DNA of 64,000 nt from assembly GCA_037447655.1 (NCBI GenBank), contig JBBHKE010001763.1, forward strand, positions 1 through 64,000. The letters are read 5' to 3'. Within the stretch, counting starts at the first letter, position 1. The number at the start of each line of letters is the position of its first letter. A program made the translations under genes and the position numbers. The DNA is from Zygnema cylindricum (Eukaryota > Streptophyta > Zygnematophyceae > Zygnematales > Zygnemataceae). The notes beneath the pieces were generated by a model. The model ran no database searches. It saw nothing but the letters and a program-made list of their open reading frames with translations, and was not told the DNA's origin. Shown here one piece after another: positions 84 to 62,247 of this stretch.

Positions 84-146
84 TGCGATAATAATACGAT
101 AATAATACGATAATAATACAGTAATAATACGGTAATAATACGATAT
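84..146. repeat. Degenerate tandem repeat, unit about 11-12 bp
   Basis: About five imperfect copies of a unit reading roughly cgataataata follow one another. It is simple-sequence DNA and no coding potential is seen. Confidence 0.75.
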
Positions 147-226
147 ACATAATCACCTCAAACCCTAATTTTAAACTGTACAACCGACTGAACATCAAAT
201 TTGGCTAACTGATACTAAGTTCAATA

Positions 227-3752: not shown

Positions 3753-3947
3753 GTCTGTATAGGTTCCGGGGTTTGTCCAAGTTTTTTCGGAAACAGGGCA
3801 AACGAAAAACCTGCAGGAAATTGAGACAACCATGAGAAAGACAAAATGGAAAAATTGCGTAAACTAGAGGAAAGACAACAAAAGGACAAGGGTGCAAAAA
3901 AATGCGTACAGAAAAATAAGATAGGAAAGGAGAGAGAAGAGGAGGTA

Positions 3948-3953
<6 letters not shown>

Positions 3954-4013
<60 letters not shown>
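3954..4013. repeat. (GA)n microsatellite in 5' UTR/promoter
   Basis: Nearly pure GA repeat with one GG interruption, followed by about 200 bp of purine-rich sequence. On the gene strand it is a TC-rich tract just upstream of the putative 5'-UTR intron acceptor. It is the counterpart of the longer tract at 6929-7027 in copy B. Confidence 0.85.
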
Positions 4014-4015
<2 letters not shown>

Positions 4016-4431
4016 AAGGGCGACAGAGGGAAAAAGAGGCAGGGGAGGAAAACTGCATAAGAAGCGAAGGAGGAAGGAAGAGGGAAAGAGCGAGAGAGAG
4101 GAAAAGAAAAAGAGAAGGAGAAAGGGCAAGGAAAGCTAGAGAAAGGGAGAAAGGGGAGAGAGAGAGGGAGAGGGGGAGAGAAAGGAGGAGCAAAAGGGAG
4201 AGAGAACGGGAGAGATGAAGTGAGAGAAAGAGAGGGCGCGAGGGAAAGGAAGGGGGAGTGGCACAGCAAAGATTGGCAGTCAGAGGGAGGGACTGGAAGT
4301 GACAATATTTAAATTTGAATTGGAAACGATTGAAGTGGAGCCAAAACGAAGCGGTTTTGGCTTCGAATGAAAGTCTCGGGAAAAGAGGGAAGGCAAACCT
4401 TATCGGTCGGGAGGAAGCTTTAAAACGAAGT

Positions 4432-4519
4432 GCCACGTGGAAGCTTCAGGACTCAGATAGATGTCACGTGGGAGAAAGCATTAGTGCAGCTAGGAATGGA
4501 GATGGCTGCCACGTGGCAT
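4432..4519 (-). promoter_or_regulatory. Three G-box/ABRE-like CACGTGG motifs in the promoter of the acidic-protein gene
   Basis: CCACGTGG, TCACGTGG and CCACGTGGC occur at about 4434, 4465 and 4510, roughly 700 bp upstream of the chosen start codon. The core CACGTG is the binding site of plant bZIP and bHLH factors. Clustering of three within 80 bp suggests a real regulatory module, possibly responsive to ABA or light. This is inferred from the motif only. Confidence 0.5.
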
Positions 4520-5982: not shown

Positions 5983-6732
5983 GTGGGGCATTCGTCGCGA
6001 GTCCGGGCCCCCAACCCGCATTCAGGCTTCCCTCCCTATATCTGTCGGGGGGTTGGGTCTATTACTGACTGCTCGTGTTGCTCCCGCTGCCTTTTTGGGA
6101 AATTGGTGCCTTATTGCCTCTACCCTTGTTTCCCGTTTTTTGGCTGGGGACACCCCTGTTCTAGCTACTGTGGTCCCCCGCGTTTTAGACGGTGTGCTAG
6201 CATTCCAGCGGACTCTATTGGACGCGTCACGTTCTCTTCCTCCCCATGCCCTAGCGGATGTGCCGATTTTCTCCACCTTGGTTACCACATCTGCTGAGCG
6301 TGTCCAGGAATCAATTTCCAATCGGGTTGTCGCCGCCATTAAATCTGACCTTCTCAATGCGCTTCCCTCTGATTCTTCGCATGCCCGTCTTCTCTCTTGT
6401 GGTGGACCAGGTTCTGGATCTTAGCTTTTGGCTACACCTATTTTGTCCACTCTCCGATTCTCACCTGCTCAATTCACCACCGCCCTCCGATTTCCCCTTG
6501 GCCTCCCCCATCCTCCTTTACTTGGCTCTCTTTTTTGTGCATGTGGTCGTGTTTTGGGGCCCGACGGTGTCCATCTGCTTCGTTGCTCCCATGGGGGGGA
6601 TTTGATCCAGACGCACGACAGTATTCGCGACGTTGTTGCCTCTATCGCTTCGGAGGGGGGCTTTTCTGTGCGTCGGGAGGTTTCTCACATTATTCCATCA
6701 CGTTGGGTCGATGTTGTTTTGCTTGATGGTGC
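5983..6732 (+). pseudogene. Fragment of a retroelement ORF, region C-terminal to reverse transcriptase
   Basis: One reading frame runs from about 6053 to the junction with duplication copy B at 6733, broken by a single in-frame TAG at 6422. It encodes LLNALPSD, then LRFPLGLPHPP, then a Cys/His motif CACGRVLGPDGVHLLRC, then HDSIRDVVASIASEGGFSVRRE. This layout (short linker, C-x2-C...H-x4-C, conserved xRxxRDV helix) is the region seen downstream of the reverse-transcriptase domain in many eukaryotic retroelement ORFs. The RT domain itself is absent and the 3' end is cut exactly where copy B begins. The region is GC-richer than its surroundings. Family assignment is by recall of the motif and remains tentative. 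Confidence 0.5.
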
Positions 6733-6928
6733 CCGGGGTTTGTCCAAGTTTTTTCGGAAACAGGGCAAACGAAAAACCTGCAGGAAATTGAGACAACCAT
6801 GAGAAAGACAAAATGGAAAAATTGCGTAAACTAGAGGAAAGACAACAAAAGGACAAGGGTGCAAAAAAATGCGTACAGAAAAATAAGATAGGAAAGGAGA
6901 GAGAAGAGGAGGTATGTGTGTGTGAGAG

Positions 6929-6971
6929 AGAGAGATAGAGAGTGAGGCAGAGAGAGAGAGAGAGAAAGTGT

Positions 6972-7027
<56 letters not shown>
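6929..7027. repeat. (GA)n microsatellite, copy B
   Basis: Longer and more interrupted GA tract at the position equivalent to 3954-4013. The length difference is the main divergence between the two otherwise near-identical 1.1-kb segments. Confidence 0.85.
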
Positions 7028-7029
<2 letters not shown>

Positions 7030-8149
7030 AAGGGCGACAGAGGGAAAAAGAGGCAGGGGAGGAAAACTGCATAAGAAGCGAAGGAGGAAGGAAGAGGGAA
7101 AGAGCGAGAGAGAGGAAAAGAAAAAGAGAAGGAGAAAGGGCAAGGAAAGCTAGAGAAAGGGAGAAAGGGGAGAGAGAGAGGGAGAGGGGGAGAGAAAGGA
7201 AGAGCAAAAGGGAGAGAGAACGGGAGAGATGAAGTGAGAGAAAGAGAGGGCGCGAGGGAAAGGAAGGGGGAGTGGCACAGCAAAGATTGGCAGTCAGAGG
7301 GAGGGACTGGAAGTGACAATATTTAAATTTGAATTGGAAACGATTGAAGTGGAGCCAAAACGAAGCGATTTTGGCTTCGAATGAAAGTCTCGGGAAAAGA
7401 GGGAAGACAAACCTTTTCGGTCGGGAGGAAGCTTTAAAATGAAGTGCCACGTGGAAGCTTCAGGACTCAGATAGATGTCACGTGGGAGAAAGCATTAGTG
7501 CAGCTAGGAATGGAGATGGCTGCCACGTGGCATCCTTTGCACAAAAGGAAAGGCGTGATTTAAAATGGAATACGGTTCAGTTTGAGTTCCACGGATTTTA
7601 CTATTTTAGGGCATACTCTATGGTATAGTGCGCCTTTCATTGCCTTGTCTTCTGTAATGTTTTTCTGTAATATGACGGAATTATTACGAATCAAAATAGA
7701 TTCAAATCGTAATTTCTACTCGAATGAAAAGTTGACGCGTGCGTCAGAAACATGATTCCGGGCTGACCTGAAAGTTTTACATGCGTAGACGTGAAAGGAT
7801 GTAAAGTTGTAAACTTTTGGCTTCCAGCACATCACCAAACAAAGGACAGATCGAGGAACAAAAGGAAACCATTTTGTAGTGTTGGGTATCGGGTAAATTA
7901 ATATCGCGATGGTTTCAATATTCGATATATCGAATTTTAATCCAGCAGACTTCTCGATATATCGTACCGAGACCAGCATAAGCCATCGCGATATATAGTA
8001 TTCTTTAAAATTGATATTTTAATATTTTATATAATATGTTATTTTAGCGAAAAAGACAAATTGTCTGATACGCCACGTACGACGTGATTTTCGTTGCGTG
8101 ACTTAAAGGTAGACGCCGCAAATTGTAACCGACAAAAAAGTACTAAGGG

Positions 8150-28700: not shown

Positions 28701-31700
28701 CCAGAAGGTTCATGTCTTTTCATTTTTTTTTGTTTGTTTTTGCAAGCTTTTGAGGGTATCCTTCTTTTTTGGATACTTGAAGTCCTTTTTGACTAAATTA
28801 TGTGTATAAATCAGCTTTTCTCAATCGCTCATTTTAGCTTTTGTGGGTTTTCAATAATATGTCTGATTTATTTTCAGTAACTTTAAAGAATCCATTTCTT
28901 GAATTGTCCAATGCTCCGTGAAGATTTCTTTTTTTCTTGATGTTATTTAACTATTATTATAATTCCTTTTTTTCAGGTGCCCAGTCTCGCAATAATGGCC
29001 CAGGAGGCTGTTGACAATGGAATGTGTGTAGTAATTGGTTTGCAAGCAACTGGAGAGGCCTTCTTAAATGACGTGAAAGAGGTATTTTTATTTTTGATAT
29101 TGTTTTCCACATGCTAAAAATCCGGTTTCCCGATAATTGGGCAAAAAAAATATTTTGGGAATCGCTGCACCAGAATACAAGTCAGTTGCTTGTCAAACTT
29201 TGTGGGCCACGTTTTAGTACCGTAGTCTGACTCACTTTTTTTTTTGTTTCCTTGTTCATTTTATTACAGGATGATGGTGATGATGTTGATGACATGATGT
29301 CAGCCCCAAGATTGGTCCTACAGAAAGTTGTCACAAACATTATCGCTCCATCGCTATTGAGTATGAAGAGGACATGTATTCCATGCGAGGCAGAGGTGAT
29401 TTTTCTTTTTGTGTCATTTTCAAGAGAAGGGATTTGTCCTTGTGTCCCGATGTAGATGTTTTAAATTTCACTGTATTCATGTGGTTGTATTCATGTGGTT
29501 GCAGATCCGGGTTTGTATGCTATTTGGTAATCATTTCTGGTAGTTTTACTTTCTTTATTGGTATCGAGTCCGTGAACTAACTATTGGAAATCGGCGATAT
29601 TCAACTTATCGCATGGGCGCCAAAGTGTTAACTTTGGAAAATGGCCAAGCCGGGGATCGAACCCGGGACCTGTGCAAACCGTACACTAGCTCTACCAACT
29701 GAGCTACAGCTACCCGGCCGATGTGTACGCAAGCGCCTAATACCGAATTTATACGGCGATAAGCGGCGCACTGGCGAACCAGCTTAGAGCGCGATACACA
29801 CGTGTGGAGTCCAAAGTGGGACAGTTCTCCAACATGCCCCCTCACGATGTACTCCATCTCGTGTGGCTTGCCATCGCCCCTTGGCTCTGATACCATATTG
29901 GAAATCGGCGATATTCAACTTATCGCATGGGCGCCAAAGTATTAACTTTGGAAAATGGCCAAGGCGGGGATCGAAAGCGGGACCTGTGCAAACCGTACAC
30001 TAGCTCTACCAATTGAGCTACCTGGTCGATGTGTACGCAAGCGCCTAATACCGAATTTATACGGCGATTAGCGGCGCAGAGGCGAACCAGCTTAGAGCGC
30101 GATACACACGTGTGGAGTCTGTTGATTTGAGGCAGCTGGCGCCACTAAAGAAGATGAAGAAGCACCGGCAGTTGCCATGATAATCAATTGTGCAAAGAGG
30201 AAACTCTCACGAAATCCCACAAACAACCAACTTCACAATGAAGCCCCAAGCAAACCAGACACACCCTAGGTCTGCAAATTTGCCTCAATATAAAATATAC
30301 ACCAAAGAAACCACATGCAAAATTTCACAAAGTTCTGCCAAAAGATCACAATGATCTTATAATTCAAACACACCCAAAAACTGTTTCGCAGTTTTTCCTA
30401 CACAATAATCCTACTTTTCCTAAAGTAATCTAAGTCCTATATATACAAGTGAGCCTACGGTTGATCACACCGTACTCCAACTAGCGTGGTCAATTGGTAC
30501 ACTACTCTTCATTAACAAAATCCCACCGTCGAATGCACATAATTATTTCCACCAATCAGACAGCAGCTAGAAATGAAATAGTACGCGGTTAAAGTTCGTC
30601 TGCTGAAATGACAGTACTGTCTATACTTCTCTTCCAAAAATGACGGCGGACTCCGTCCGCTTTCCACGTATTCTTTCATCACCGAAGATGAACCTCCACG
30701 TGTAACTTTGGTCCTCAAATGTAACTTGTACCTTTTCTTCTAGAACAACCAAACTTGACTTTCTCACAGACCGACACGTGTGCTTGGAGTGCACCAAATC
30801 TGTGTACTCCCTTTCGAGTTTACATACTCACTAAATCATGTCCTGGCCAATTTATCTTCACACAAACTGACTCATATTCAGAACACCTTTCTTGCGCAGA
30901 CTGCTATAGCTGCTATGACTCTGCTACGACTGCTTTGACTGCTATGATTGCTATGATCTGTCAGCGCAGCTGTGATATTAGAGCAGCGCAACTGCGATGT
31001 CTGATCAGAGCAGCATAGCAGCACAGCAAGAAGTGTAGAGTGCTCAAGGTTTCTAGCTGCAATGTCAAACTTAGCGCAGCATGGCAGCATAGTAGCAAGT
31101 TATAGAGAGAACTCAAGGTTTCCAAAACAACACTCCCCTAAACCTTAGGCTCTCTCAGCCTCTGAGTCCACATTCCCCTCTACAGAACTTCAACTTATGT
31201 GCAGGTAAAGACTTAGTCATCATATCTGCTACCATCTTCTCATCCGGAAGATAACTTAGCTTTAAAATTATGTTCATCACCTTCTCTCTTACAAAATGCA
31301 GCTTGATGTCAATGTGCTTGCTTTTGAAGTGATGACTAGGGTTGGATGCAATCGCAATAGCTGTTTGGTTGTCACACCACACTATTTGAGGTCCGGATTG
31401 CATAAAATGAAGTTCTTGGAGGAGCGACTTCACCCATAGTAACTCCTTGACAGCTGAGCTTGCTGCCATATATTCAGCCTCCATTGTAGACTGAGCTGTT
31501 ACCTTTTGAAGCTTGATGCTCCAGCAGCATGTTCCATTTCCAATCTTCAAAATGAATCCAGTGGTGGAACTGCGGCTTGGCATGTCTCCATAGCTAGCAT
31601 CGCTCCATGTCTGAATTTTGACTTCATCTCCACCGAGAGCAAGTCTAAGATTCCGTGTTCCTTCAAGGTACAGAAGAACCCTCTTTGCGGCCTCCCAATC

Positions 31701-34700
31701 TGTTTATCTTGGATTCTACAAACTTCGACTCAAAGCGCCAATTGTTGTCGCAATATCCGGCCTTGTGCAGTTCATGAAGTAAATTAGGCTACCAACAATC
31801 TGTCGCTATGGAATGGTGGCCATAAAATCTGCCTCCCCTGACTCCAAGGTATCGTCAAAAATGATTCCTCCATCGGTCTCCATGCCTTCCACTTTCTGCT
31901 TAAATTCCATGGGAGTGGCACTTCCGTTTGCCTCAGCCATGCCAAACTTTTCAAGCACATTTCCTATCGCTTCACGGTGCGTTAGATAGATTGTTCTCCT
32001 ATCTCTATCCCTTTCTACTTGAATTCCAAGAATATACTTTGCCTCACCTAAGTCCTTCATCTCAAATCTTGAATTCAAGGCTGCCTTTATTTTGTTAATT
32101 CCATTTAATGACTTGCTTAACAGCAGCAAATCATCTACATATACCGCAATGTACATAATCCCATCTTTCCCTTCCATAACATAGACTGAGTGATCTGAGC
32201 TAATCCTAACGAATCCTAGACTGGTGAGAAACTCATCTAGTTTTAGGTTCCACGGACGTGGAGCCTGCTTCAAACCATACAAGGATTTCAACAGTTTACA
32301 GACCAGATTTTCTTTTCCAGTCTCTTCATACCTTTCAGGCTGCTTCATATAAATTACTTCCTCTAAATCTCCATGCAAAAAGCTGTCTTAACATCCATTT
32401 GATGTAGTTCCATTTTCTCAATGGCCGCTAAGGATACCAAAATTCTAACAGTTGGAAACCGGACAACTGGAGAGAAAGTCTCTTCATAGTCAATTCCCTC
32501 CTTCTGATTATAGCCTTTAGCAACAAGCCTAGCCTTATATCTTTCAATAGAGTTATCTGGATTCAACTTTACTTTAAAGACCCACTTACAGCCGATGGCT
32601 TTTCAGTCTGGTGGAAGCTCCACAAGCTCCCAAGTTTGAGCCTCCATTATCGATCGCATTTCATCGTTAGCCGCAGCAATCCATTGATCTTTTTCCGGAG
32701 CTGAAAAGGCTTCCTGTATTGTGACCGGTTCCATCATGCTGGCAGATAATAGAGCAGTTTCGCAGCTTCGCAATTTCGCAGCGTCGCAGCTTTGCAATTT
32801 CGCAGCGTCGCAGCGTTGCAGCTTCGTAGCGTCGTAGCTTTGCAGCTTCGCAGCATCGTAGTTTTCAGTCAGATCCACTGAACCGACAGAAAATAGCGCA
32901 GTTTCGCAGTTTCGCAGCCTGCTGCTTTGCCTTTTTCCCCCCGGAAAATCTGAGGTTGGAATTGTTGGATCCGTAGGTTGCCGCCGAGGAGGAGGTGGTG
33001 GAGGAGGAGGAGGATTCTCCACAAGGGGACCAGTCGGAGGGTCCAAAGTGGGACTAGAAGAAGCGAGAGGAACACTTTCAAAAATAACATATTCTTTGAT
33101 TTTGGAATCTTTTTCAAAATCTGTCATACCAAAAACATCTACCGATCTGCTCTCTTCTTTAACCTGAATATTTCTAGCAGTCTGAAGAGTATTCCTATCC
33201 CTATTAAATACTCTATAGCCCACGGATTCATCATCATAACCCATAAAAATTCCTGGAATCGATTTCGGACTAAGCTTAGAAATAGGGAGATTATCCAAAA
33301 TAAAACATTTACTCCCAAAAACCCGGAAGTGACTAACATTCGGTTTTCTTCCAGTCCACACTTCATATGGTGTTTTCCCTTTAATTGCTCTAGTCTCTAT
33401 TCTATTTCTAATATACGACGCACACGAGAAAGCTTCACCCCAAAATTTGAAATCTATTCCCTTATCTAGTAACATAGATTTTGCACTTTCTGTTAGAGTT
33501 CGGTTGAGTCTTTCAGATACTCCATTCTGTTCCGGAGTATAAGAAACTGTAAATTGCCGAGAAATGCCCTTGTCTTTTAAATATTCAGAGAATGTATGAG
33601 AAATATATTCCCCTCCGTTGTCGGACCGAAGGGAAAGGATCGGTTTCCCATGAAGTTTTTCGGCCCATACCCGAAAATGCTTGAAGTGAGTGAGCACTTC
33701 ACTCTTTTCTTTCATAAAGTAAACCTTGCTATATCTTGAGAAGTCATCCGTAAAAGTGACCAAAAACCGGTTTCCACTGAGTGAAGGAACTTTTGATGGC
33801 CCCCACACATCCGAATGAATAATTTGTTGCAAATCCGTTGCCCGGTTATCTGCTGTGTGAGGTAGTGGCAGCTTATGAAGTTTTCCCAAAGCACATCCAT
33901 CACATACATGGGAATCTGTTTGTCCTAATTTAACACCATCTATCATATTTTGCTTTACCATTTTATCAAGCCTTTCATGATGAACATGACCGAGCCTCTT
34001 ATGCCACAAAACATTTTCCGGAAGAACACTAGAGTATGCAAAGTCAATTTCACTAGCCAAGTCCATCCGGTACAACAAGTTTGGGCCTCTAGTTCCTACG
34101 AAAGCTACCTTCCCATCTTTGCTTACTACCTTTTTCCCATTCTTTTGTAAAATTCAAAACCTTTCATTTCTGCTACCGAAGTGGAAAACAATTTTTTTGT
34201 AAACTTTGGGATATAGAGAACATCATGCAAGGTTCTCTTTACAATCTGACCATTGATGTCACGTGCTAACTCCACGCTTCCCTTTGCCGTAGCCTCCACA
34301 CCGCTGTCATCCGCGTAATAAATCCGACGAGTGGGAATTGGAGTAAGCGTTTTGAAGTAAGCCCGGTTGCCGCACATGTGGGAGGAGCATCCGGAGTCCA
34401 TAATCCATCCGTTCTCTCGAGGTTCCTCCATGAGATCTTTTGCAAGAGCAAAGAACTCGTCATCATCCGATTGCGGAAATCTGACCACATCTTCCTTTCC
34501 TTCCGGTCGTTCATCTTGTGACGTCTCATCAAATGCAAGGAACGCCGCATTTTTAATCGGCAGTTTTGATGTCGGAAATTTTGGTGATGAATCCTCCGAT
34601 CGTACCCTCCATCCCGCACGATAAATTCCTGTTTCACATGCTTTTATAAATGCCGGACACAGCCGGAAAACATGACCTTGACCAAAGCAATAGACACACC

Positions 34701-37700
34701 TATCATATTGCCTATAATTCGGATTGGGGGTAAAGTTTCTGTTTCCAGAAAAATCAGCCGGCTTATATGTCTGTGCATTGTAAGCAACCACTGATTGACC
34801 ACCATTTAATGCTATCTGAGTTGCCTCTTCGTCTAGGATATAAGCCTGAGCTACTGCTATATTCCATTTACTCTTCTCTAACCGTCTTAGCTGCTCTGCT
34901 GCTCCTCTATATTCAGTAGGAAGCCCTCTCATTAGAATCATAGCTTGATGATAAGGAGGAAAACTCCCCCCGGAACATGCATTCTCCGATAATAGAAGTT
35001 TCAAGCCATTACAATATGAGTTCATGTCACCCCCAGTATATTTATAGTCCCAAATTTTTCCAGCAGTAACAACCTCATTCTGCTCACTAGCTAAGACATA
35101 AGATTCACTCAAGGCCTTCCATATTTCAGATGCCGTAGAGATATGGATATATGTCATGTTAAGATCTTCTGACAAAAGTAACTTCAACACATGCAATGCA
35201 TCTTCATTTTTCTTTCCAAACTCCGGATCCGTATCCGGAAGAATACCAGAAATCACATCATATAATTTCACTTGTTTCAAATAAGACTTAGTCAAATCCA
35301 CCCAATAAAGATACTTTTGCCCATTAAACACCGGGATCCGTGAGGGAGGGCCCGTGACCTGTTGATTTGAGGCAGTTGGTGCCACTGAAGAAGATGAAGA
35401 AGCACCGGCAGTTGCCATGATAATCAATTGTGCAAAGAGGAAACTCTCACGAAATCCCACAAACAACCAACTTCACAATGAAGCCCCAAGCAAACCAAAC
35501 ACACCCTAGGTCTGCAAATTTGCCACAATATAAAATATACACCAAAGAAACCACATGCAGAATTTCACAAAGTTCTGCCAAAAGATCACAATGATCTTAT
35601 AATTCAAACACACCCAAAAACTGCTTCGCAGTTTTTCCTACACAATAATCATACTTTTCCTAAAGTAATCTAAGTCCTATATATACAAGTGAGCCTACAG
35701 TTGATCACACCGTACTCCAACTAGCGTGGTCAATTGGTACACTACTCTTCATTAACAAAATCCCACCGTCGAATGCACATAATTATTTCCATCAATCAGA
35801 CAGCAGCTAGAAATGAAATAGTACGCGGTTAAAGTTCGTCCGCTGAAATGACGGTACAGTCAATACTTCTCTTCCAAAAATGACGGCGGACTCCGTCCGC
35901 TTTCCACGTATTCTTTCATCACCGAAGATGAACCTTCACGTGTAACTTTGGTCCTCAAATGTAACTTGTACCTTTTCTTCTAGAACAACCAAACTTGACT
36001 TTCTCACGGACCGACACGTGTGCCTGGAGTGCACCAAATCTGTGTACTCCCTTTCGAGTTAACATACTCACTAAATCATGTCCTCGTCAATTTATCTTCA
36101 CACAAACTGACTAAACACCTTTCTTGCGCAGACTGCTATAGCTGCTATGACTCTGCTACGACTGCTATGACTGCTATGATCTGTCAGCGCAGCTGTGATA
36201 TTAGAGCAGCGCAACTGCGATGTCAGATCAGAGCAGCATAGCAGCACAGCAACAAGTGTAGAGTGCTCAAGGTTTCTAGCTGCAATGTCAGACTTAGCGC
36301 AGCATGGCAGCATAGCAGCAAGATATAGAGAGAACTCAAGGTTTCCAAAACAACAGAGTCCAAAGTGGACAGTTCTCCAACACTAACCATGCCAGAAACG
36401 GTGACATGTGGTCAATTTCGGAATCCCACTCACATATGAGGTTTGAGTTTCTGTGAGATTATTATTAATACAACAGTGTTGGATCATTCAGTAACAGTGA
36501 CCTTTCAAATGGTCTAGAAATTTGTGTTTAGGCTTTTAGGGTTTTCGTTTGAAGTTGTGTCTTGACCAGTATCTTGATCAGTAACCGATTCTTTTATTAT
36601 ATTTTTTGCAGGTTATCCAAATGGTCAGGAAGTGGGTTCAAAAGAATCCACCTCCACGTGTTCGTTGTAGAAGTGTTCCCATTCGAAGACAAGTGCCCTC
36701 AGCAGTTGGACGATCATCGGAGAGAGAAGACACTGATGTCGAGGTAAATTTATTTTCCATTTACATGAACTGCCGTACAATTTGGGATAATTTGGGACAG
36801 TTTGGCATAATTTGGGACAATTTAACTATCTCGAGACAATTGGGGACAATTTGGAACAATCTGGGAGGAACAGAGTGAATTATACACCGTGCTGGACGTA
36901 TTTGTTATAACTTTTCATTAAAACAACGTTGAGGAGGCTGTTCTTTTTTTTTGCAGATGCTCACAGTAATGAATTCTGAGGAAGTTGAGGCCGTGAAACT
37001 TAAAAAAGCAAAAGCATCTGGTTCCTATGTTGTCCTTGATGACAACTCACCAAATGAAGATGACAGAATGAAGTTGCATACTTCAGGGTTAATCCAATCA
37101 CAAGTAAGGATTAACATCAATTTCTAGAAGATTAGCCGCTATTGGTTTTGATAGCCCTAGTCCAATGCTGGTCTTCTTGTGCTTTTGACCATAAAAACAT
37201 ATATAACACTATAGTGGTGAATAATTGTTCATGCCAGATGTAATTAAATCACTAAAAGAGTCCTCACACTAAATTTCTTTACTGTACTACTGTAGTGAGT
37301 GATGACGTAGCTTTCTGCGAAACTATATTTAATTGTTAAATAAAATCTGATTTTTTTCAATAGAGTAAGCTGTCATGGGAGCCAATGCCAGTTTTTTGGG
37401 TTAAAGAGTGTTCCTTGTCTTTGAAAAATAATGGAATGGCGTCAAGTGTTTTATTTGACATTGTTATTGTTCTCTATGTAACTTCTTCCTTGCATTGTTA
37501 CTTGCATTTTCCTTTCTTAACATCCTCTTTTTGTTTCAGGGAACCAGAAAGCGTGGAAACACTGAGGCTCTTATATGTCTGAGTGATGACGAGGATGAAG
37601 ACATCAAAATTTTAGGCACAAAAGGTGTGAAGATCAAAGGTAAAAATCAAATAAAGACTCCTGTGGTTGATTTAGAAGAAGAAGAAGACAAAGAAGAAGA

Positions 37701-40700
37701 AAAAGAAGAAGAAGAAGAAGAAGAAGAAGAAAATGAAGGCGACGACGATAGTGATTGTGAGCTTTTAGATGGTGGGTTATCTTTGTGGGGTGGTTCTGAT
37801 AAAATAACTCCCAGGCAGGAAAAGGCGGACACTGTTTCCAAGCCTAGTGTAAACTGTACAGACTGGAAAGCTTTCAAACTGACTAGTAATGGTAGAAAAC
37901 GTGTCAAATTCGAAACTCCTGGGAAAGTGACTAGTGACTACCCAACAGTGGACTTGAAAAAATCACCTCTAAAAGCCTCCATGGCCCAAAACAAAAATGT
38001 AAGGAAGCCTCGCGAACTTTTCAAGGATGAAACAAATCCTTCTACATCATCTAAGGCTGGAGTTTCAACACCAGCTGGGACGAGAGGGAAACGAGGGAGA
38101 GAGAGTGGTCTTTCTACTAAAGAAAAAAAAGCAGCTGCCGCTGAGGAAGCTAGGTGAGGCTCCTGTTTTACTTTACCTTGCAATAAGCACGTAAAGAAAA
38201 ACTTTTTGTTTGGCTCATTTCAGAGGTTTAGTGTCTCTAGGGGAATATCTCTTCATGGTTTATACTGGTTGCACTTAGGCAATGTATGGTTTGGAATCAG
38301 AATTCAAGTGAACAGAATTTTCTTTTTCATGATCAATTTTCAAGCTAGCTGGGATGAGTGAGTTCAATTTGAGCAAGAAACGTCATCTAATGTGGGTTAT
38401 ATTCTATTGGGACTCTCACAGTTCTCAAAATGCGTTCTGAAAATCTATTCAGCTGAGTTTCTCGTAGTTTATTTAGGTTATTATTACTTTCAAGGAACTG
38501 AAAACTCTAATGGATTTTTTGTCATTTGCCAGAGACAAGTCTTACGACAGTCCTGAAAAACTTCGACAGGTAGACCGTATTTGCAATTCTCTCCTCAAGG
38601 CAATTGGGAATTTAGATCTTCCATTCAATCCGGTGAGGCATACGGGAAATAACTCAGTCAACCCTTCACTGATTTTTCTCAGTCCAGGTCATTCATTTCT
38701 GTTGGTTCCTTGGAAATTCCTCCTTAGAAATTCCTTTCTTTTGACGTGTGCTGCCTATGTGGTGGCGAGGTATAAGATGCTTATTTGTTTCTGTTTTTTT
38801 TTGTTTTTTTTTGGTTTTTCTGTGTTTGCAGCTTGATGATTTGAAAGCGTTACTGGGAGGTGAGGAACATGTTGCCGAGATGACTGGCCGTAGGGAAGAA
38901 ATGGTGACAGACGATAATGGGTCGATTACTTGTAGACGGAGATGTGGAGGTGTTGCCACCAAGGTACTGTGAGCTTTATAGTGGTTTTCTCGGGTTTTTT
39001 TAAGGTGTTTTAGGTTTTTTTACGGTTTTTTAGGGTTTTTTTTTGGGGTTTTTCCTTAAGGTTTTTTTAAGGGTTTTGGGTTTTTAATAACCCTTTGGCA
39101 CTTTTGGCAATGAAGAATCAAATGGATTGGTTGCCCTGATGATATAGCTGACCTGTTTTTTGCAATGGCCTCCTATCGATGTCTTTTCCTCCCCGAACTG
39201 ATGGCCAAAAGTACAAGCTGACCAGAAAATACTATGTATTTGACGATTTTTTGTGCGAGGATTTCAAGATTTTCGGAATAGGGGAAGGTCAAACTGTGTA
39301 GATTGAATATTTGTCGGGAGCTGTTGGAAATCGGCGATACTCAACTTATCGCATGGGCGCCAAAGTGTTAACTTTGGAAAATGGCCAAGCCAGGATCAAA
39401 CCCGGGACCTGTGCAAACCGTACACTAGCTCTACCAACTGAGCTACACGGCCGATGTGTACGCAAGCGCCTAATACCGAATTTATACGGCGATTAGCGGC
39501 GCACTGGCGAACCAGCTTAGAGCGTGATACACACGTGTGGAGTCCAAAGTGGACAGTTCTCCAACACGCCCCCTCACGATGTACTCCATCTCGTGTGGCT
39601 TGGCATCGCCCCCTGGCTTTGATACTGTTAAAGTTATTTCTTTGTTAGAATCTTCGGACTAGCCCTACCTTTGTTAATAACGCAAACCGGTATTCCAGTT
39701 TGCGTTATCTAGCTAGTTAGAGCAGTCTAGCCTATGCTTTTCACCTAGCTCAGTTTTTGATGTTCTTTCAGTTTCTATTTCAGTTTCAGTTTTATGTATT
39801 AGTTATCTATTTCTGTTTTCTACTCCTGAAGCTTCTTAGAAGCGCACACTGCAGCCACTGTAGTATGTGACAGTTTCCGCCAGTAGATCTGATCCTTAGA
39901 TCTCCCTGACACCTAAGGATCCCAACTCTGCCTTTTCGGCAAATGAGCCAAGTGACCCTTCAGAGTCACATAAGCTCCCTAGATCTTGAAAGGTCATACT
40001 AATGACTTTCTCTCTTCTACTTAAACGACAAACTCTGTATTGTTTACTACCAATTAAAAAGGAATACAATTTGTCTCCCTTTACCTTTGTCCTTTTATTA
40101 TTTCCATCCCACTTTGTCTGCTGCCATGTCTTCAATTCCTATAGGTTATGGGCCTGTTCACACGCATTCAAACACTGTTGCAAAATTTAACGGCACTGAC
40201 TTTTACGGATGGAAGTTTCAAATTGAGCACCTTTTGCGGCGAGAGAAACTTTGGACCATTATCTGTGGAAGTGAGCCCGAACCTTCGGATGCAGCCGCCA
40301 AAACTGCTTGGATACTTCGCAATGAGGAGGCGCTTTCTCGATTGGTTCTAGCTCTTGAACCTTCCCAACTTGGACTTATCCGTGACGCTAGCTCTGCTCA
40401 TGACGCCTGGACACTTCTGACAAATGCCTACGAAATCCGATCTTGGTCCAACAAACTTCTTCTTCGCCGACAACTAATTTCTTCTCAGAAACTTCCCTCC
40501 GAGAGTATGCAAGACTACATCCAGAATATCAAATCTCTGGCTGGTCGACTGAAAAGTATCGGCTCTACCGTCACCGATGAAGATATTATCACGGCGATCT
40601 TAGGAGGACTGTCGTCCTCTTATGCCGCCTTTATCTCATCAATCGACAACTCCTCTGTCCCTATCACTATTCCATCTCTCACCACCAGTTTGGTGCATGA

Positions 40701-43700
40701 GGAGACAAAACAGAATCTGCCTCCGCCCACTGGTGCTGCTCTGGCAGCCTATCATCCGTCCACCCGCCCACCCAAGATTTTCTCCTGTCGCTATTGCCGC
40801 GAACCTGACCATGTTATAGACAATTGTCCTGCCCTCAAACGTAAGCAGGACCGACAGGGAAATCCTGGTCGTACAGGTGGACGTGGACGCCAGAGTGGCC
40901 ACGGCCTTTATCATGGTCACGCCTCTACAGCTGAAGCGATTTCCCCTGTCGTACCTGAAAATTTCGCGCCAACCAACCCTTTTAACTATTTTCCTTCACC
41001 TGAATACGTCAATCCTCCTCCTGGCGAATATTTCCAACGGTCACCTATCGCCCAGCCGTACAACAATTATCATTACAGTTCAACTCCAACTGTCGCTGGA
41101 CAGTTACCGGCTGTCCCATCTGCTCCACCACCACCTGACTACGGATTCGCCCTCGTCACATCCGCTATGCCCGATCCTCTCATCCCACACGACTCTTGGA
41201 TCGTTGACTCCGGAGCGTCCCATCATTTATCCTCACGCTCCGATTGGTACACAACTATATCGCCGCTTCATTCTCCCATGACGATTTTACTTGGCAACAA
41301 TGCCGCCTTAACGGCAACCCATATCGGACAGATCTCCACTGTCGGCCCAAATGTGACATCACCCATAATCCTTTCTCACGTCCTATTTGTTCCTGGACTG
41401 AAAAAGAATCTTTTCTCTGTTGGCGCTGCTCTTCATCAAGGCGCCACTGCTGTTTTTTCCACTACTACTGTCACATTCTTGTCATCTACTCAAGCGCAAG
41501 TAGGTCTTGGAAACAAATCTGGATCTATCTACATCCTCTCCCATTTCCAATCCACTGGATCTGCAAACCTTGCTATATCCCCGCCACCTCAATCGTTCCC
41601 ACGATGGCATCTCCGATATGGCCATCTTTCCGCCTCCGGTCTGCAAGAATTAAGCAAAGGTCTTGTCAATGGCCTAGACTCATTCTCACCCAAAAATCTA
41701 CCTTTTTGCTCTGGATGCATCCAAGGCAAATTAACGCGTCCGTCCTTTCCATCTTCCACTTCTAAATCCAGTGGCCCCCTCACATTGGTCCACTCTGATC
41801 TCTGTGGTCCCATGTCTGTAGCCAGTCACACCGGCGCCCTATATTTTGTAACTTTCATTGATGACGCCACACGCTTCTGTCATCTTTTCCTTCTTCAGCG
41901 AAAATCTGACACGTTCCACAAATTTCAAGTATATAAATCCCTGGTTGAAAACTCCCTCGACTGTCGTATTAAATGTCTAAGAACCGACAACGGGGGGGAG
42001 TACTTCTCCACCGAATTTTCGCGATTCCTCAGTAATCACGGAATTGTTCATCAATCTACGGTTCCCCATACACCACAGCAAAATGGTGTTTCCGAAAGAT
42101 ATAATCGAACGGTGGTTAACATGGCTAGGTCCATGTTACATTTTGCTGCCCTGCCAACAATTTTCTGGGCAGAGTCTGTAACCACTGCGAATTACTTACG
42201 TAATCTTTCCCCAACCTCGGCTCTTCCCGGAAAAACCCCTCATGAAGCATGGACAGGAGTAAAACCGGACGTCTCACACCTTCGTATATTCGGTTGTACC
42301 GCTTGGGTAAAGAATCTTACTCCAGCAGGCAAATGGGACAGTCGAGCCAAATCGGGCGTCTTAGTTGGTTTCGCAACCGAATCCAAGGCATACCGAATCT
42401 GGGTCTCCAGTGAACGCCGAGTCGTCCTCAGCCGTGACGTCAGCTTCAATGAAGAGCCTCTCCTTCTCAAACTTCTGCATGCTTCGCCTCCTTTTCCTTC
42501 CCCTTCCCCTCCTCCTCTTCCCCTTACCCAGCTGGAATCTCCTTCATCACTCCTTTCCATCATATCTCCTGCCATTCCTCCTCATTCGGCCAATCATTCT
42601 TCCCTCTCCCACCCTTCTCTATCCTTCCCTCCTTCCACACTCGTCAGATCCACTTCGGAGCTCATTTTACCATCCTCCCCTTCCCCACTCTCTCGGACTG
42701 TTTCCGATCCTTATTCCCTCTCTCCAGTCAATCCTAAGGATCCACCATATGCTATTCAAAGAGAAAATTCTGTTCCCACTCCTAATGCTATCACCCTCCC
42801 CCTTCGAAAAAGTGAAAGAATTCTCAACCAGCAGCTTCGTGAAGGCAATGGATCAGCAAACATTGCCACTGTCGACGTTCCTCAATCATTTTCAGCCGCC
42901 ATGAATGGACCGTATGCTACCTCCTGGAAAGTGGCCACAGACGCGGAGTTTGCATCCTTAGAGAAAAATGGCACGTGGGAACTCACCTCTCTCCCAAAAG
43001 ATCGCAAGGTCATCGGATCGAAGTGGGTTTTTCGCGTCAAAACAAAAGCTGATGGATCCCTTGACCGCTTCAAGGCTCGCTTCGTCGCCAAAGGTTTTCT
43101 CCAAAAGGAGGGAGTTGACTTCAATGAAACCTACGCTCCAGTAGCAAAGTTTACCTCCATTCGTATTCTCCTCTCCCTTGCTGCTGCTCGTGACTGGCAC
43201 GTCCATCATATGGATGTGCAGACAGCATTTCTCTACGGCACATTAAGCGAGGAAATCTTCATCCGTCAACCGGAAGGATACGTAGCGCCTGGCAATGAGC
43301 ACCTCGTCTGCAGACTTCTCAAATCTCTCTATGGCCTAAAACAAGCCCCTCGCGTTTGGAATAAACACCTGGAGGCCGTTCTTCTCAAGGAGGGCTTCAG
43401 CAAGCTTGATGCAGATTTTGGTCTTTTTCTGCGAGGTAATGACGAGTCTCTGGTCATCCTAGTTATATATGTCGATGATCTCCTCCTTGCCAGTCCTTCT
43501 CTTTCCCTCATCAATCTAGTAAAAACCATGCTTAACCTTTACTTCTCCATGACTGACCTAGGAGAAGTAGAATACTGTCTTGGCATTTTTGTCGGTCGAA
43601 ATCGACCATCCAAAACCTTATATCTATCCCAAGAGAAATATATCAATGAAATCCTCACCAGATTTTCAATGTCAGATTGTAGCCCGATTTCCACTCCATT

Positions 43701-46700
43701 GGACCCCAATGTAAAGCTTATCAAAAACTCCGGTGGGCCTGTCCCCGGAGCCACCCATGACCTTTATCGTTCCATTGTTGGGAGTCTCATGTATGCTATG
43801 ACAGGGACGCGTCCTGACATAGCAGTAGCAGTTGGACAGCTCAGTCAATTTGTGTCTAACCCTTCAGCAGATCACCTCCTTGCTGCCAAACGAGTTCTTC
43901 GATACCTCCAAGGGACAAAATGCCTCAAGCTCACCTTCACTGGCTCCTCTTCGCCTGAGCTGGTTGGTTTCTGTGATGCGGACTGGGGGGGAGATTTGGA
44001 CTCTCGACGCTCCACTACCGGAGTGTGTTTTTCCCTTCATGGCGCCCTCATTTCCTGGTCTTCCAAGAAGCAACCAACCGTTGCTCTTTCCTCCACGGAA
44101 TCAGAATATATGGCTGCCACTCATGCCACCAAGGAAGCAATCTGGTTGCGATTTCTCCTCTCGAATCTTCAGTTTCCACAACCATCCGCGACTGTCATCT
44201 ACAGCGACTCCCAAGGTTCCCTTGCCCTTATGGGCAATCCCGTACACCATCGCAGGACTAAACATATCGACATTCAGTTCCACTTCACACGCGACGCCAT
44301 TTCTGCCGGTACTGTCAAGTTCACCTACTGTCCCACCTCCAAGCAGCTGGCCGACTTCCTCACAAAGGCTCTAGCCCGGCCTCAGTTCGAAATTCATCTG
44401 TCCAACTCCGGCCTTCGATTCTAACCAAGAGGGGGGGTGTTAAAGTTATTTCTTTGTTAGAATCTTCGGACTAGCCCTACCTTTGTTAATAACGCAAACC
44501 GGTATTCCAGTTTGCGTTATCTAGCTAGTTAGAGCAGTCTAGCCTATGCTTTTCACCTAGCTCAGTTTTTTGATGTTCTTTCAGTTTCTATTTCAGTTTC
44601 AGTTTTATGTATTAGTTATCTATTTCTGTTTTCTACTCCTGAAGCTTCTTAGAAGCGCACACTGCAGCCACTGTAGTATGTGACAGTTTCCGCCAGTAGA
44701 TCTGATCCTTAGATCTCCCTGACACCTAAGGATCCCAACTCTGCCTTTTCGGCAAATAAGCCAAATGACCCTTCAGAGTCACATAAGCTCCCTAGATCTT
44801 GAAAGGTCATACTAATGACTTTCTCTCTTCTACTTAATCGACAAACTCTGTATTGTTTACTACCAATTAAAAAGGAATACAATTTGTCTCCCTTTACCTT
44901 TGTCCTTTTATTATTTCCATCCCACTTTGTCTGCTGCCATGTCTACAATTCCTATAGATACCATGTTGGAAATCGGCGATATTCAACTTATCGCATGGGC
45001 GCCAAAGTGTTAACTTTGGAAAATGGCCAAGCCGGGGATCGAACCCGGGACCTGTGCAAACCGTACACTAGCTCTACCAACTGAGCTACCCGGTCGATGT
45101 GTACGCAAGCGCCTAATACCGAATTTATACGGCGATTAGCGGCGCACTGGCGAACCAGCTTAGAGCGCGATACACATGTGTGGAGTCCAAAGTGGACAGT
45201 TCTCCAACAGGAACTATTTCCAGTTGTAAAGATCATGTGTTCTAAACTGATATGTTTATTATTGTCTGTGTCTATTATTGACCGCGTAACTGAATTCCTA
45301 ACCGTTTGTGGAAGTTGTAGCTTTATGGCCTCCTTCTAGTCGAATTAATGACTTGTTGCACTCAAACTATGTTCAATTGAAGCGAAATCTCCGGTTAACT
45401 TTGTTTCATCTAGCAGTGCATTAATGAAAACAATTGAAAAAAGCAATTGGACAATGGTATTTGTTGTTCAATTCATCTTACAACAAAGATTATGCCGTTT
45501 TTTCTGGGTCAGTCATGCAAGACAGCCGAACTGTCTAATTAACTGAAGCTTTGATCAAAAGTGGTTGCTTATAATTCCTTTGTTTATTAATTCAAGTTTT
45601 TTTTTATATGGTGGTATGGCCATACAGGAGATAAATATTCAAGAGCAAAAGAACTTCATGAATGGTAAAAAACACATCGCCATAATTAGCGAGGCTGCTT
45701 CTTGTGGAATATCGCTCCAGGCAGATCGACGAGTTCCAAACCAAAGGAGACGGTTACATATCACTTTAGAGTTGCCATGGAGCGCAGAAAAGGCAGTACA
45801 ACAGTTTGGGAGGTCCCATCGTTCAAATCAGGTTTCTGCCCCGATTTATCGCATTTTAATGACGAATTGTGGAGGAGAAAAACGATTCGCATCTTCGGCC
45901 GCAAAACGACTTGAGGTGGAGACTATCTTCTTTGCCCTATTACATTAAATTGGTTGCGTGTTTCCTGGGGTAACATTCTTGCTTATGCCTGTGGACTTGA
46001 TGAACTGAACAACAGTTCTAGGAACTCGTTTAATTGCTTAAATGTACTTGCCAAATAATGAAACATCTTGCCTCATTAGACAGGTATCTGTTATATTTTG
46101 CGAAGGTGTCTCACATTGTATCACTGGTTATCTATAAAAACTTGCAACCCAAACTGTCAAGTGGATTACCGAATTGTACATGAATTTGTCTGTTGTGTAA
46201 TCAACACAGATCGTGGCTTAATTGGTCCAACTGATTTAACTCAACCCAACTCAACTCTATTTTTTTAACTTAGAGCGTTGTTCCATTAGGCGGTCTCAGT
46301 AAATGTCAAAAATCCGTTTACTGAAGCCATCGTTCCATTGTGTCGGGTCAGTAATCGACATTTTATTTGCGTGGCAAAACTTGATTGGTCCACGTAATAG
46401 ATGAATAAGATTTTGGAAATCTTTAAAGAATCTCTGACAGCAAATTGTGACCACATATTCGTACTGGCGAAGGTAAAAAGTAACTCGTACGACGTATTGA
46501 ATAAAATCTGTACGGGCGGACGAAACTTAAGATTTGTAAAAGCGTACGAAAATGTCAAAATGGTTTAGTGGATGGCAACAGACGTGTGAAACAATATCCT
46601 CCGTCAAAGATTTTATTGCGGCTTCCGGTGGCCTCGCATCCTCCCTGGCGGAAGGCACATGTCATATGCAACGTGTACCCACCTGGTCGCGCGGTCGTCG

Positions 46701-49700: not shown

Positions 49701-52700
49701 AATTGTACTGTTAATTGACTTTAACTGAATCATGTCGTTATCATTGTGAGATTTATTACATCAGCTCAATTAAGCATAATATTGAGTTAGATCCTAAAGG
49801 AAACCGTGAATAGCAGGGATAATTTTAGTACGCCGTTTATTACTAATAGAGTTGACGTATTTTTCACTTTTCAAACTCGTTTTTTTCCATGCATATTTCT
49901 TGAATTTTCCATCAGAATATTATGATTGAAAGGAAATCAAAGATAAACTTAAACATGACGAAGTGAAATAATATTAATTCAATATTAAAGTCTGGATACT
50001 ATTCTGGAATTTGTTCGTAAAATCAGGTGATAGTCCCTCATTTCCACCCAAAACGGTAAAGAACAAAATGCTAAAGAAAAAAAACAAGATATTCATTAAA
50101 TTAATCCAATCAATGAATCAATTAATCTTTTTTGGTGTGGTTTCTGTGGTTGGGGCAGTCAAAAAATTCAGAGCAATGGGGCATTATGATGAGGGAATTC
50201 TCTCTCTAAAAGGACAGAGCATTCGAATGCTTCCGGGATACCCACAAGTCATATACAAGGATCCTATCTATCTTAAAGAGGCAAAACTGGTAAATACCCA
50301 TTTAATATTATGATGGGAATATACATGATTTCATTAAAGAAGGATATGATTGGTCTTCCAGAGATGTCCATTCGTGAACTGCTGTTGACCTCAGTTTTTG
50401 TCTTGTTTTTGGATAATTGTTGGGAATTTTCTACTTTTTTGTTAAAAGTGGTCAAGATTTCTGTTGTTTATGCTGTCATATGCTTATTATTTGAGTTTAC
50501 TAAATCAAAATGTTTTGGAAATGCTTTTTATGAAGAAAGTTTCGCAAAGTTGGACTAAATAGATTGCTGATTAGTATCATTGCTTATCCACACTAATTTT
50601 TGGTAAAAGTTTAAAGGAACCAGATATTTTCTCCACTCAACCTCAGGTTGTCAGTTTGGGAAGCACATTTTTCCCAATTTCCCTTCTAAAAAAGCACAAG
50701 GGTTTTAGGGTTTTTTAGGGTTTTTAGGGTTAAAAAACCCTAAAAAAACCTAACCTTTAAAAAACCCTTAAAATAAAATTTGTAAATTTAGTATTATAGT
50801 TGATAAATAGTTTGGACAACTCCAATGGTGGTACTACGGCCTTACCAAATTCCCAGTCCTCGTGTGACGTGACAGGCAAAGCTTGAGCTTGATCGAGGAA
50901 TCAGTTGGGAGGGAATAAAGCAGAAATGGGACGAGGATCAGAAAGACAATTTTGCGACGTTCGATTCAAAAAATGGGTTTTGGGTTTCTTCATACTGTGG
51001 CGATGAAATCCTGGGTATCCCTCCAAAAGTCCTACTTGCGACAGCAATTGGTGGAGACACTTCTTATAATCCGATATTTCGCAAATATCGAATCCAAACT
51101 CCTAATCTTAATGGATACAAAACTTGGACGCTGGAGAAAGTTGAGGAAATGTGGAAGAAAACGACAATCGAAAAGGTAAAAATTGGATATTTTGTTGCTG
51201 TTTTGTTTCCAGTGGAGGTAAGTATGAAGGAAACTTAGGAAACTGTCAGTTTATGTTTTATTGTTGCTTAGTCTAAAACTTCCACGAATGTGTTAAGTTC
51301 TATTTCTGTGTGAGTTCTTTTCTTATTTCTCCACTACGTTTTTTTTTCCCCTTATTTGGTGTTGCAAGGTGGATCGGAGTTCTGTCACTGGGAGAATTTT
51401 TACATTATTTTCTGGTCTTTTAACTTTTTTATTTTGTTGTTGAGCCTTTAAGTTTTCTAGGTTGTTTTTTTATTAACTCATTGAAAGTTTTTCTACGGTT
51501 TTTAAGCTGTTTGTGTTCGGATGATGACCAATAGTTCAAGGGCTGTTGAGAATCTTAACCCTAGAAATCCTTAAAAAACCTTAAGGGGCCCTAAAACAAC
51601 CTCGTTTCGTTTTTTTGTTTGCAGGCTGAAAAATCTTGGAGGTTTTGGTACGAACGAACTGAACGGAAGTGTGAACATGGACCCAGTTGCAAAACGAGCA
51701 CCTGCCATGTTGGAACTCGCATGCAAAACCACGATCTCATTATCGGTAGGCAAACTATAACTTCAAATTAATGATAATAGTCTTCATTTTTTAACCGAAA
51801 TGATTAAGTAGCCCTTTTTTCTTCCCAAATACTAGGACTCATCCTTTCCCTCTTTTCCCTCTCCCGCTCTCTCCCTCTCCATCCTGCTCTCTCCCGCTCC
51901 CTCTCCCTCGCTCCCGCTCCCTCCCCCTCTCCCTCTCCTCTCTCCCTCTCCCTCTCCATCTCCCTCTCCCCCTCCCTCTCCCACTCCCTCTCCCTCTCCC
52001 TCTCTCTCCACCTCCTCCTCAAACGTGTGACTCTGGCCGTCCCTGAAGAACTTGTGTTGGCCGTGTTGAAAAAAAATGAAGAGTCGTCTCACTAACAAGA
52101 AAAAAAAATAAAAAATGATACCTTATTGATTGACTTTTGACTTATTGATGTTTTTCTCTTTTTTCTGTCTCTCCATCAGGTCATCCTTTATCTATTTTCA
52201 AAGATCTCTGGGAAATAAGAAAGGGGAAACAGAGTGAACGTATCCTTCGGGTCGTTAGGGCGGAGCTCGATGATGGCTCGAAATTACTTGGGATTCAAGG
52301 TTCGTTTCTGATTATTATTGTTCGTTCATAATTGTGATTGTTTGTTTATTATTATTATTGAAAGTCGTAGACTCGGAAGTTTTGGTAGTCGTCTTTTTTT
52401 CACTTTTTTTTTTTTTTTTCAGTTTTCGGTTAACTATCGTTGATCCGTTGACTTTTTTGTTTAACGAAGTTTTGCAATCTTCGTTTTTTACTTGCAATCG
52501 GTGTCATATTGTGGTCCTCACATGTTTAACATGCATAATAATGTTTGTTAAATAGTGTACGTATTATATATTATGTAAAATGTGTTCTGTATTTTGTATT
52601 ATGTATTATATGTAATAATGTATCTATTATAATAATACACGTGATTTAATTAAATTTTTGCATTGCTATGCATGTTAAAGTCTTTTTTTTTTAATAATGC

Positions 52701-57125: not shown

Positions 57126-62247
<5,122 letters not shown>

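Follow-up and report, generated by a model that had tools for sequence, protein, structure and literature searches.

Two terminal-repeat retrotransposons in miniature (TRIMs), each with a tRNA-like segment in both of its long terminal repeats (LTRs), lie in a 64,000-nucleotide stretch of DNA from Zygnema cylindricum (GenBank assembly GCA_037447655.1, contig JBBHKE010001763.1, positions 1 to 64,000; below, the window). The segment is 71-78 nt long and occupies the same place in all four LTRs. It is a real, shared, tRNA-derived sequence, and chance is no explanation for it. The type of TRIM has already been described; what is new here is the host lineage. Our preferred reading, to which we assign a probability of about 0.6, is that the TRIMs are moved by the enzymes of a partner element and that the captured tRNA promoter starts the transposition RNA, presumably through RNA polymerase III (Pol III).

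Anatomy of the TRIMs and of their tRNA-like segment

Both TRIMs lie on the minus strand, and the mapped ends of their LTRs and internal parts sum to 560 bp for TRIM1 and 552 bp for TRIM2. The four LTRs measure 253, 246, 245 and 246 bp, and the internal part is 61 bp long in both elements. The LTRs have the termini TGTTGG...CCAACA, with ...CCAATA instead in both LTRs of TRIM1. In both elements a primer-binding site (PBS), TGGTATCA[G/A]AGCC, stands immediately 3' of the 5' LTR, and a polypurine-tract-like (PPT-like) sequence, GTGAGGGGGC[A/G], immediately 5' of the 3' LTR. Both are flanked by 5-bp target-site duplications (TSDs), which read CTAAC/CTAAC for TRIM1 and, with one mismatch, GGAGC/GGAAC for TRIM2. 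The PBS of TRIM1, TGGTATCAGAGCC, presumably pairs with the 3' end of plant initiator tRNA-Met, and so, with one mismatch, does that of TRIM2, TGGTATCAAAGCC. An earlier description of this DNA, made from its letters alone (the sequence-only reading), had reported two TRIMs with LTRs of about 246-253 bp, an internal part of about 61 bp, a PBS and a PPT; this anatomy is confirmed, with LTRs of 245-253 bp. The features of the two elements, each of which is split by one nested Ty1/copia element, are as follows (LTR positions are those of the TRIM2 5' LTR).

29577-29581, unstranded: TSD CTAAC of TRIM1, from the sequence letters; partner at 36383-36387
29582-29834, minus strand: TRIM1 3' LTR, 253 bp, TGTTGG...CCAATA
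29642-29719, minus strand: tRNA-like segment of the TRIM1 3' LTR; ends from the alignment, 6-bp insertion beside the A box
29835-29895, minus strand: TRIM1 internal part, 61 bp; PBS TGGTATCAGAGCC at 29883-29895, PPT-like GTGAGGGGGCA at 29835-29845
29896-30119, minus strand: larger piece of the TRIM1 5' LTR; remainder at 36361-36382, 246 bp in total
29956-30027, minus strand: tRNA-like segment of the TRIM1 5' LTR; Rfam 15.8 bits, B box lost
36356-36382, minus strand: first 27 bp of the TRIM1 5' LTR, including the 5-bp TSD of copia element 1; followed by CTAAC at 36383-36387
39317-39321, unstranded: TSD GGAGC of TRIM2; partner GGAAC at 45210-45214, one mismatch
39322-39566, minus strand: TRIM2 3' LTR, 245 bp
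39382-39452, minus strand: tRNA-like segment of the TRIM2 3' LTR; Rfam 36.1 bits, B-box consensus disrupted by a C-to-T change and the loss of one base
39567-39625, minus strand: TRIM2 internal part, 59 of its 61 bp, with PBS TGGTATCAAAGCC; last 2 bp at 44962-44963
44964-45209, minus strand: TRIM2 5' LTR, 246 bp, the best-kept LTR
45020-45023 (LTR 187-190), minus strand: TTTT directly 3' of the tRNA-like segment, a possible weak Pol III stop
45024-45095 (LTR 115-186), minus strand: tRNA-like segment of the TRIM2 5' LTR, found by Rfam and ARAGORN
LTR 122-133, minus strand: A box TAGCTCAGTTGG of the TRIM2 5' LTR
LTR 165-175, minus strand: B box GGTTCGATCCC of the TRIM2 5' LTR
45123-45129 (LTR 81-87), minus strand: TATAAAT, its first base 34 bp 5' of the tRNA-like segment

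The tRNA-derived nature of the segment is seen most clearly in the TRIM2 5' LTR. The copy that had been placed at 45025-45095 is recovered at 45024-45095, both by ARAGORN, which calls a tRNA-Thr(GGT), and by the Rfam tRNA model RF00005 with 37.3 bits (E value of 3.2e-4 for the whole window). It is the sole copy of the segment in the whole-window lists of both programs; the Rfam scan of the window was made at the gathering threshold, and the other copies come from searches of short stretches with laxer filters. Across the four LTRs the Rfam scores are 37.3, 36.1, 26.3 and 15.8 bits. A covariance-model tRNA search had been set beforehand as a check, and it places two LTRs above the gathering score of 29 and two, at 26.3 and 15.8 bits, below it. 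Shuffled sequences do not reproduce the pattern: among 5000 dinucleotide shuffles of the best LTR ARAGORN calls no tRNA, and a pair of A and B boxes is found in 0 of 5000 shuffles of that LTR. In the window itself the A-to-B-box pattern occurs at two places, both within TRIM LTRs, and it is absent from 20 whole-window shuffles. Because all LTRs of both elements carry the segment, and at one and the same position, it predates their insertion.

The sequence-only reading had claimed a full cloverleaf with both boxes in all four LTRs. The segment is indeed there in each of them, and an A box is found by motif in all four. The rest of the claim does not extend so far, since the Rfam threshold is passed in two LTRs, ARAGORN calls one, the exact A box TAGCTCAGTTGG is kept in three and the B box in two. 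The description of the Pol III module as 'complete' was therefore an overstatement. In the TRIM1 3' LTR both boxes are intact, and the segment reaches 26.3 bits over 29649-29707, under the gathering score. What does hold is the broader idea of a TRIM LTR with a captured tRNA-like sequence and its A and B boxes, analogous to the 5S sequence of Cassandra. When the best copy is folded alone, its minimum-energy structure is not a cloverleaf (z of -1.13, with 25 of 200 shuffles equally good); for the entire LTR the fold is more stable than those of its shuffles (z of -3.14, 1 of 200 as good). Comparison of the PBS with the reverse complement of the 3' end of the segment gives 4 matching letters of 13, and the best match anywhere in the segment is 8 of 13; with such a mismatch at its 3' end, the segment is unlikely to be the element's own primer.

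The LTR also contains an 8-bp direct repeat, CACTTTGG, at LTR 16-23 and 201-208 (45187-45194 and 45002-45009), which flanks the TATA motif, the segment and TTTT. Such a repeat might remain from an insertion into an ancestral LTR that was shorter, or it might have arisen by chance. By our own estimate about one such repeat is expected by chance in 246 bp, and we do not use it as evidence for a short interspersed nuclear element (SINE) inserted in an LTR.

Proposed transcription of the elements

We propose that these TRIMs are non-coding parasites, for which an autonomous LTR retrotransposon would provide Gag, reverse transcriptase (RT) and integrase in trans. The segment would be an internal promoter of Pol III type 2 that the element has captured. 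TFIIIC bound to the A and B boxes, perhaps together with the upstream TATA motif, would set the start of transcription near LTR 110-115 in the 5' LTR. The RNA would pass the weak TTTT of the 5' LTR and halt at the TTTT of the 3' LTR, and the tRNA-like stretch would then form the repeated R region used in strand transfer. Initiator-Met tRNA would prime minus-strand synthesis, and the tRNA-like RNA would not be expected to work as a tRNA. Pol III transcription of the LTR is plausible. The fuller version, in which a TRIM with a hybrid promoter (TATA motif plus A and B boxes) originated among the algae that are sister to land plants, through a tRNA capture of its own and with the segment as R region, is more tentative, and we would put its chances somewhat below even. 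If a separate capture did occur, Pol III-driven TRIMs would have evolved on more than one occasion in the green lineage, also beyond the vascular plants, from which Cassandra and the Selaginella Helenus are known.

Several observations weigh against the Pol III reading. The evidence comes from two elements in one window, that is, from four LTRs; the B box has been lost in two of these, and the weakest copy (29956-30027) has an E value of 0.96 at 15.8 bits. TATAAAT, whose presence in all four LTRs, against 63 of 5000 shuffles with it anywhere, is in favour of the proposal, could equally serve RNA polymerase II (Pol II). TTTT adjoins the end of the segment in all four LTRs, and on its own it carries little weight because it is common in shuffled LTRs (4152 of 5000). 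A stop just 3' of the segment in the 5' LTR would also remove the PBS from the RNA unless it is read through. Stronger conservation of the tRNA-like part than of its flanks, which had been put forward as a test of function, is not seen either. In the alignment of the four LTRs, which leaves out the first 22 bp of the TRIM1 5' LTR, 9 of 72 columns inside the segment carry substitutions, compared with 8 of 174 outside it (Fisher p = 0.049). If anything, the segment varies more than the remaining LTR sequence, and the result speaks weakly against constraint in these four dead copies, which cannot settle the matter by themselves.

The pattern of these substitutions is largely that of decay after insertion. 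Fifteen of the 17 substitution columns are private to one LTR, as expected of such decay, and they are therefore scarcely informative on how selection acted on the source element. A single substitution, at LTR position 245, separates TRIM1 from TRIM2. LTR position 116 is A in both 5' LTRs and G in both 3' LTRs, a pattern that is unexpected under independent decay and perhaps reflects parallel transitions.

Three other explanations of the segment can be weighed on the same data. The elements may be ordinary Pol II TRIMs. TATAAAT (LTR 81-87) would then start the RNA about 30 bp further downstream, and the segment would be a passenger that goes back to a tRNA or SINE inserted long ago into an ancestral LTR. 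The presence of TATAAAT in every LTR, a segment at least as variable as its surroundings, with no visible constraint, and the lack of a cloverleaf in the minimum-energy fold of the best copy all agree with this account. An old passenger, however, tends to lose its promoter letters, whereas here both boxes keep their consensus letters and a tRNA-like spacing in two LTRs that belong to separate elements. The same layout also recurs in the Helenus elements of fungi, animals and Selaginella (PMC10886601; this and the other papers are cited for the sections drawn on here). We regard the Pol II account as the main rival of the Pol III reading and as clearly less likely than it. The two polymerases might instead divide the work, Pol II producing the transposition RNA and Pol III only a tRNA-like RNA of about 75 nt that ends at TTTT. 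The motifs for such a division are at hand: every LTR has TATAAAT, the A box and a TTTT 3' of the segment, and two also have the B box. The putative terminator, however, is the very motif that shuffles produce so readily. The title of the Cassandra paper reportedly speaks of an 'independently transcribed 5S RNA', which would be a parallel. We consider a division of this kind rather improbable.

That the segments are genuine tRNA genes that happen to sit in repeats is the least credible explanation, and we give it almost no weight. The ARAGORN call of tRNA-Thr(GGT) at 45024-45095 and the two LTRs above the Rfam tRNA threshold would speak for it. The LTR context largely refutes it, since all four copies occupy the corresponding position in the LTRs of elements that have a PBS, a PPT and TSDs. 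Moreover, ARAGORN calls only one copy of the four, the best copy does not take the form of a cloverleaf in its minimum-energy fold, and eukaryotic nuclear tRNAs do not usually have GGT as a threonine anticodon.

Nested copia elements and neighbouring genes

The sequence-only reading makes no mention of the Ty1/copia elements that split the two TRIMs; they lie at the following positions.

30120-36355, minus strand: nested Ty1/copia element 1, inside the TRIM1 5' LTR; TSD GAGTC at 30115-30119 and 36356-36360
39626-44956, plus strand: nested Ty1/copia element 2, inside the TRIM2 PBS; TSD GATAC at 39621-39625 and 44957-44961

Element 1 has LTRs of about 1 kb (about 30120-31132 and 35359-36355) that are 95.7% identical, and element 2 has LTRs of about 518 bp (about 39626-40143 and 44438-44956) that are 99% identical. 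Gag, integrase and RVT_2 domains are found by Pfam in the reading frames of the nested elements. Element 2 is young, as its reading frame at 40087-44424 is open over 1445 codons and its LTRs are 99% identical. The Kimura two-parameter (K2P) distances between paired LTRs are 0.038 for TRIM1, 0.029 for TRIM2, 0.027 for copia element 1 and 0.008 for copia element 2, where the TRIM figures derive from 9 and 7 differences, with 1 bp in excess in two of the four TRIM rows. The order of these distances fits the nesting, with TRIM1 and copia element 1 not clearly different.

Neither of these copia elements is accepted as the autonomous partner of the TRIMs, since no stretch of more than 11 bp aligns between the TRIMs and either of the two copia elements of the window. 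The letters 3' of the copia 5' LTRs resemble the anticodon-loop type of initiator-Met priming; such a primer site differs from the 3'-end PBS of the TRIMs and further disfavours a partnership. After the LTR of copia element 1 stands GGTCACGGGCCC, possibly a mutated anticodon-loop primer site. The likely gag start of copia element 2, an in-frame ATG near 40126, lies within the 5' LTR, and the gag frame of copia element 1 likewise begins within its 5' LTR (35300-35470, minus strand). Judged by the TSD, the LTR of copia element 2 ends in TATA, not CA. Among the best 120 of 3079 matches to the RT domain of copia element 2, nothing exceeds 56% identity.

Besides these elements, the window holds exons of two recognizable genes. 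A strawberry-notch-type helicase exon carries PF13871 at 45547-45945 (plus strand), and 50873-51235 (plus strand), which has no Pfam match, is by eye presumably a second exon of this type. The end of TRIM2, with its nested copia element, precedes the first helicase exon by a few hundred bases, and TRIM2 possibly sits within an intron. A multi-exon aspartate aminotransferase gene extends over 57129-61330 (minus strand), with PF00155 at 57129-57416 and 58805-59086. Its joined translation of 358 aa, with guessed exon borders, was used as a query; in the best 120 of 8000 scored proteins the top identities are 93% and 80%, followed by Sphagnum (77%), Riccia (74%) and flowering plants (up to 74%). 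A tree built from the query and 37 proteins selected from the 120 listed (38 rows in all) joins the query to the 93% sequence (support 100/100), then to row 'Mesen1' (100/97) and row 'SM000018S03723' (97/91), and this group stands apart from the moss, liverwort and vascular plant rows. We take 'Mesen1' to be Mesotaenium endlicherianum and 'SM000018S03723' to be Spirogloea muscicola. Both species belong to the Zygnematophyceae, and the tree of this one gene places the host most likely among the zygnematophyte algae. Together with the protein search it leads us to reject a flowering plant as host.

Elsewhere in the window, an open reading frame that contains DUF7797 has no homologue at E values up to 0.001 among 8000 scored candidates. 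The frames at 3644-4436 and 6685-7450 run through long, GA/CT-rich low-complexity DNA, and their translations are near-identical over long parts. This similarity suggests that several hundred bases were duplicated in the vicinity of the gene at 2142-3833.

Comparison with known TRIMs and SINEs

TRIMs with tRNA-like sequences in their LTRs were named Helenus by Kojima 2024, where 'TRIMp3' is proposed for TRIMs of the Pol III type (PMC10886601). The sequence-only reading knew of no described TRIM of this kind; that paper describes one. The Zygnema TRIM is of the Helenus type ('TRIMp3'), matched to the published families by description, not by sequence. Helenus elements are 311-1263 bp long, have 5-bp TSDs in plants and fungi, and conserve an A box (TRGCY...YGG) and a B box (GGTTC); most of those in fungi have a PBS of the anticodon-loop type, and Pol III transcription is not shown for them in the sections of Kojima 2024 drawn on here (PMC10886601). 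The Zygnema TRIMs share with them the short, non-coding LTR architecture, a tRNA-derived sequence in each LTR, a PBS, a PPT, the 5-bp TSDs of plant and fungal members and a length (560 and 552 bp) within the published range. Of the two boxes, the A-box pattern is present in all four Zygnema LTRs and the B box in two. The tRNA-like part of Helenus does not prime the element's own reverse transcription, and that of the Zygnema TRIMs is unlikely to do so. Unlike that of most fungal Helenus elements, the PBS here is of the 3'-end initiator-Met type and not of the anticodon-loop type. There are also differences in size and host. Helenus-1_SMo has an LTR of 120 bp and an internal part of 85 bp (PMC10886601), in contrast to 245-253 bp and 61 bp in Zygnema. 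The host table of the same paper lists fungi, animals and a single plant, Selaginella moellendorffii, and holds no entry for the zygnematophytes, the group to which the present host belongs (PMC10886601).

Other small-RNA-bearing elements are more distant. Cassandra carries a small-RNA gene with a Pol III promoter in each LTR and has a Met-type PBS (PMC10853983); the Zygnema TRIM resembles it in its PBS and in a putative Pol III promoter, but the captured sequence is derived from a tRNA and not from 5S rRNA. No 5S rRNA match is found in the window at the Rfam gathering score, nor at E values up to 1 in three LTR-centred stretches of 701 bases. Ajax, a TRIM of nemerteans, likewise has a small-RNA promoter fragment and 5-bp TSDs, but the fragment is a partial 5S promoter and the host is an animal (PMC10886601). 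Finally, tRNA-derived SINEs (SINE2) share the tRNA-like head with A and B boxes. They have no LTRs, PBS or PPT and are moved by the machinery of long interspersed nuclear elements, whereas LTRs, a PBS, a PPT and 5-bp TSDs are all present here; direct reading of the letters shows no poly(A) tail at the edges of the segment.

According to Gao 2016, 5S rRNA occurs in no TRIM family except Cassandra, and the word 'tRNA' does not appear in the main text of that paper (PMC4717578). Likewise, the sections used of the Zygnema genome preprint mention neither Helenus nor Cassandra (PMC9915684), and those of the yellowhorn genome paper hold nothing on tRNA-bearing TRIMs (PMC8647845). Among the matches listed in a search of the open-licence literature, tRNA-bearing TRIMs appear in Kojima 2024 and, in the portions consulted, in a meeting report that cites it (PMC12859917), with no later report from green plants. 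Exact patterns of the LTR and internal part have no match in viral contigs or prokaryote genome contigs, as one would expect of a repeat from an alga.

Provided that the host placement is right, the range of tRNA-bearing TRIMs in green plants extends from one lycophyte to a zygnematophyte alga. LTRs of the Helenus kind give spurious tRNA gene calls in rust fungi (PMC10886601), and similar LTRs elsewhere call for the same caution in annotation. Zygnematophyte algae are the sister group of land plants, and to the Helenus-type elements the Zygnema TRIM adds a case that combines a TATA motif with Pol III boxes, in which the choice of polymerase is directly testable.

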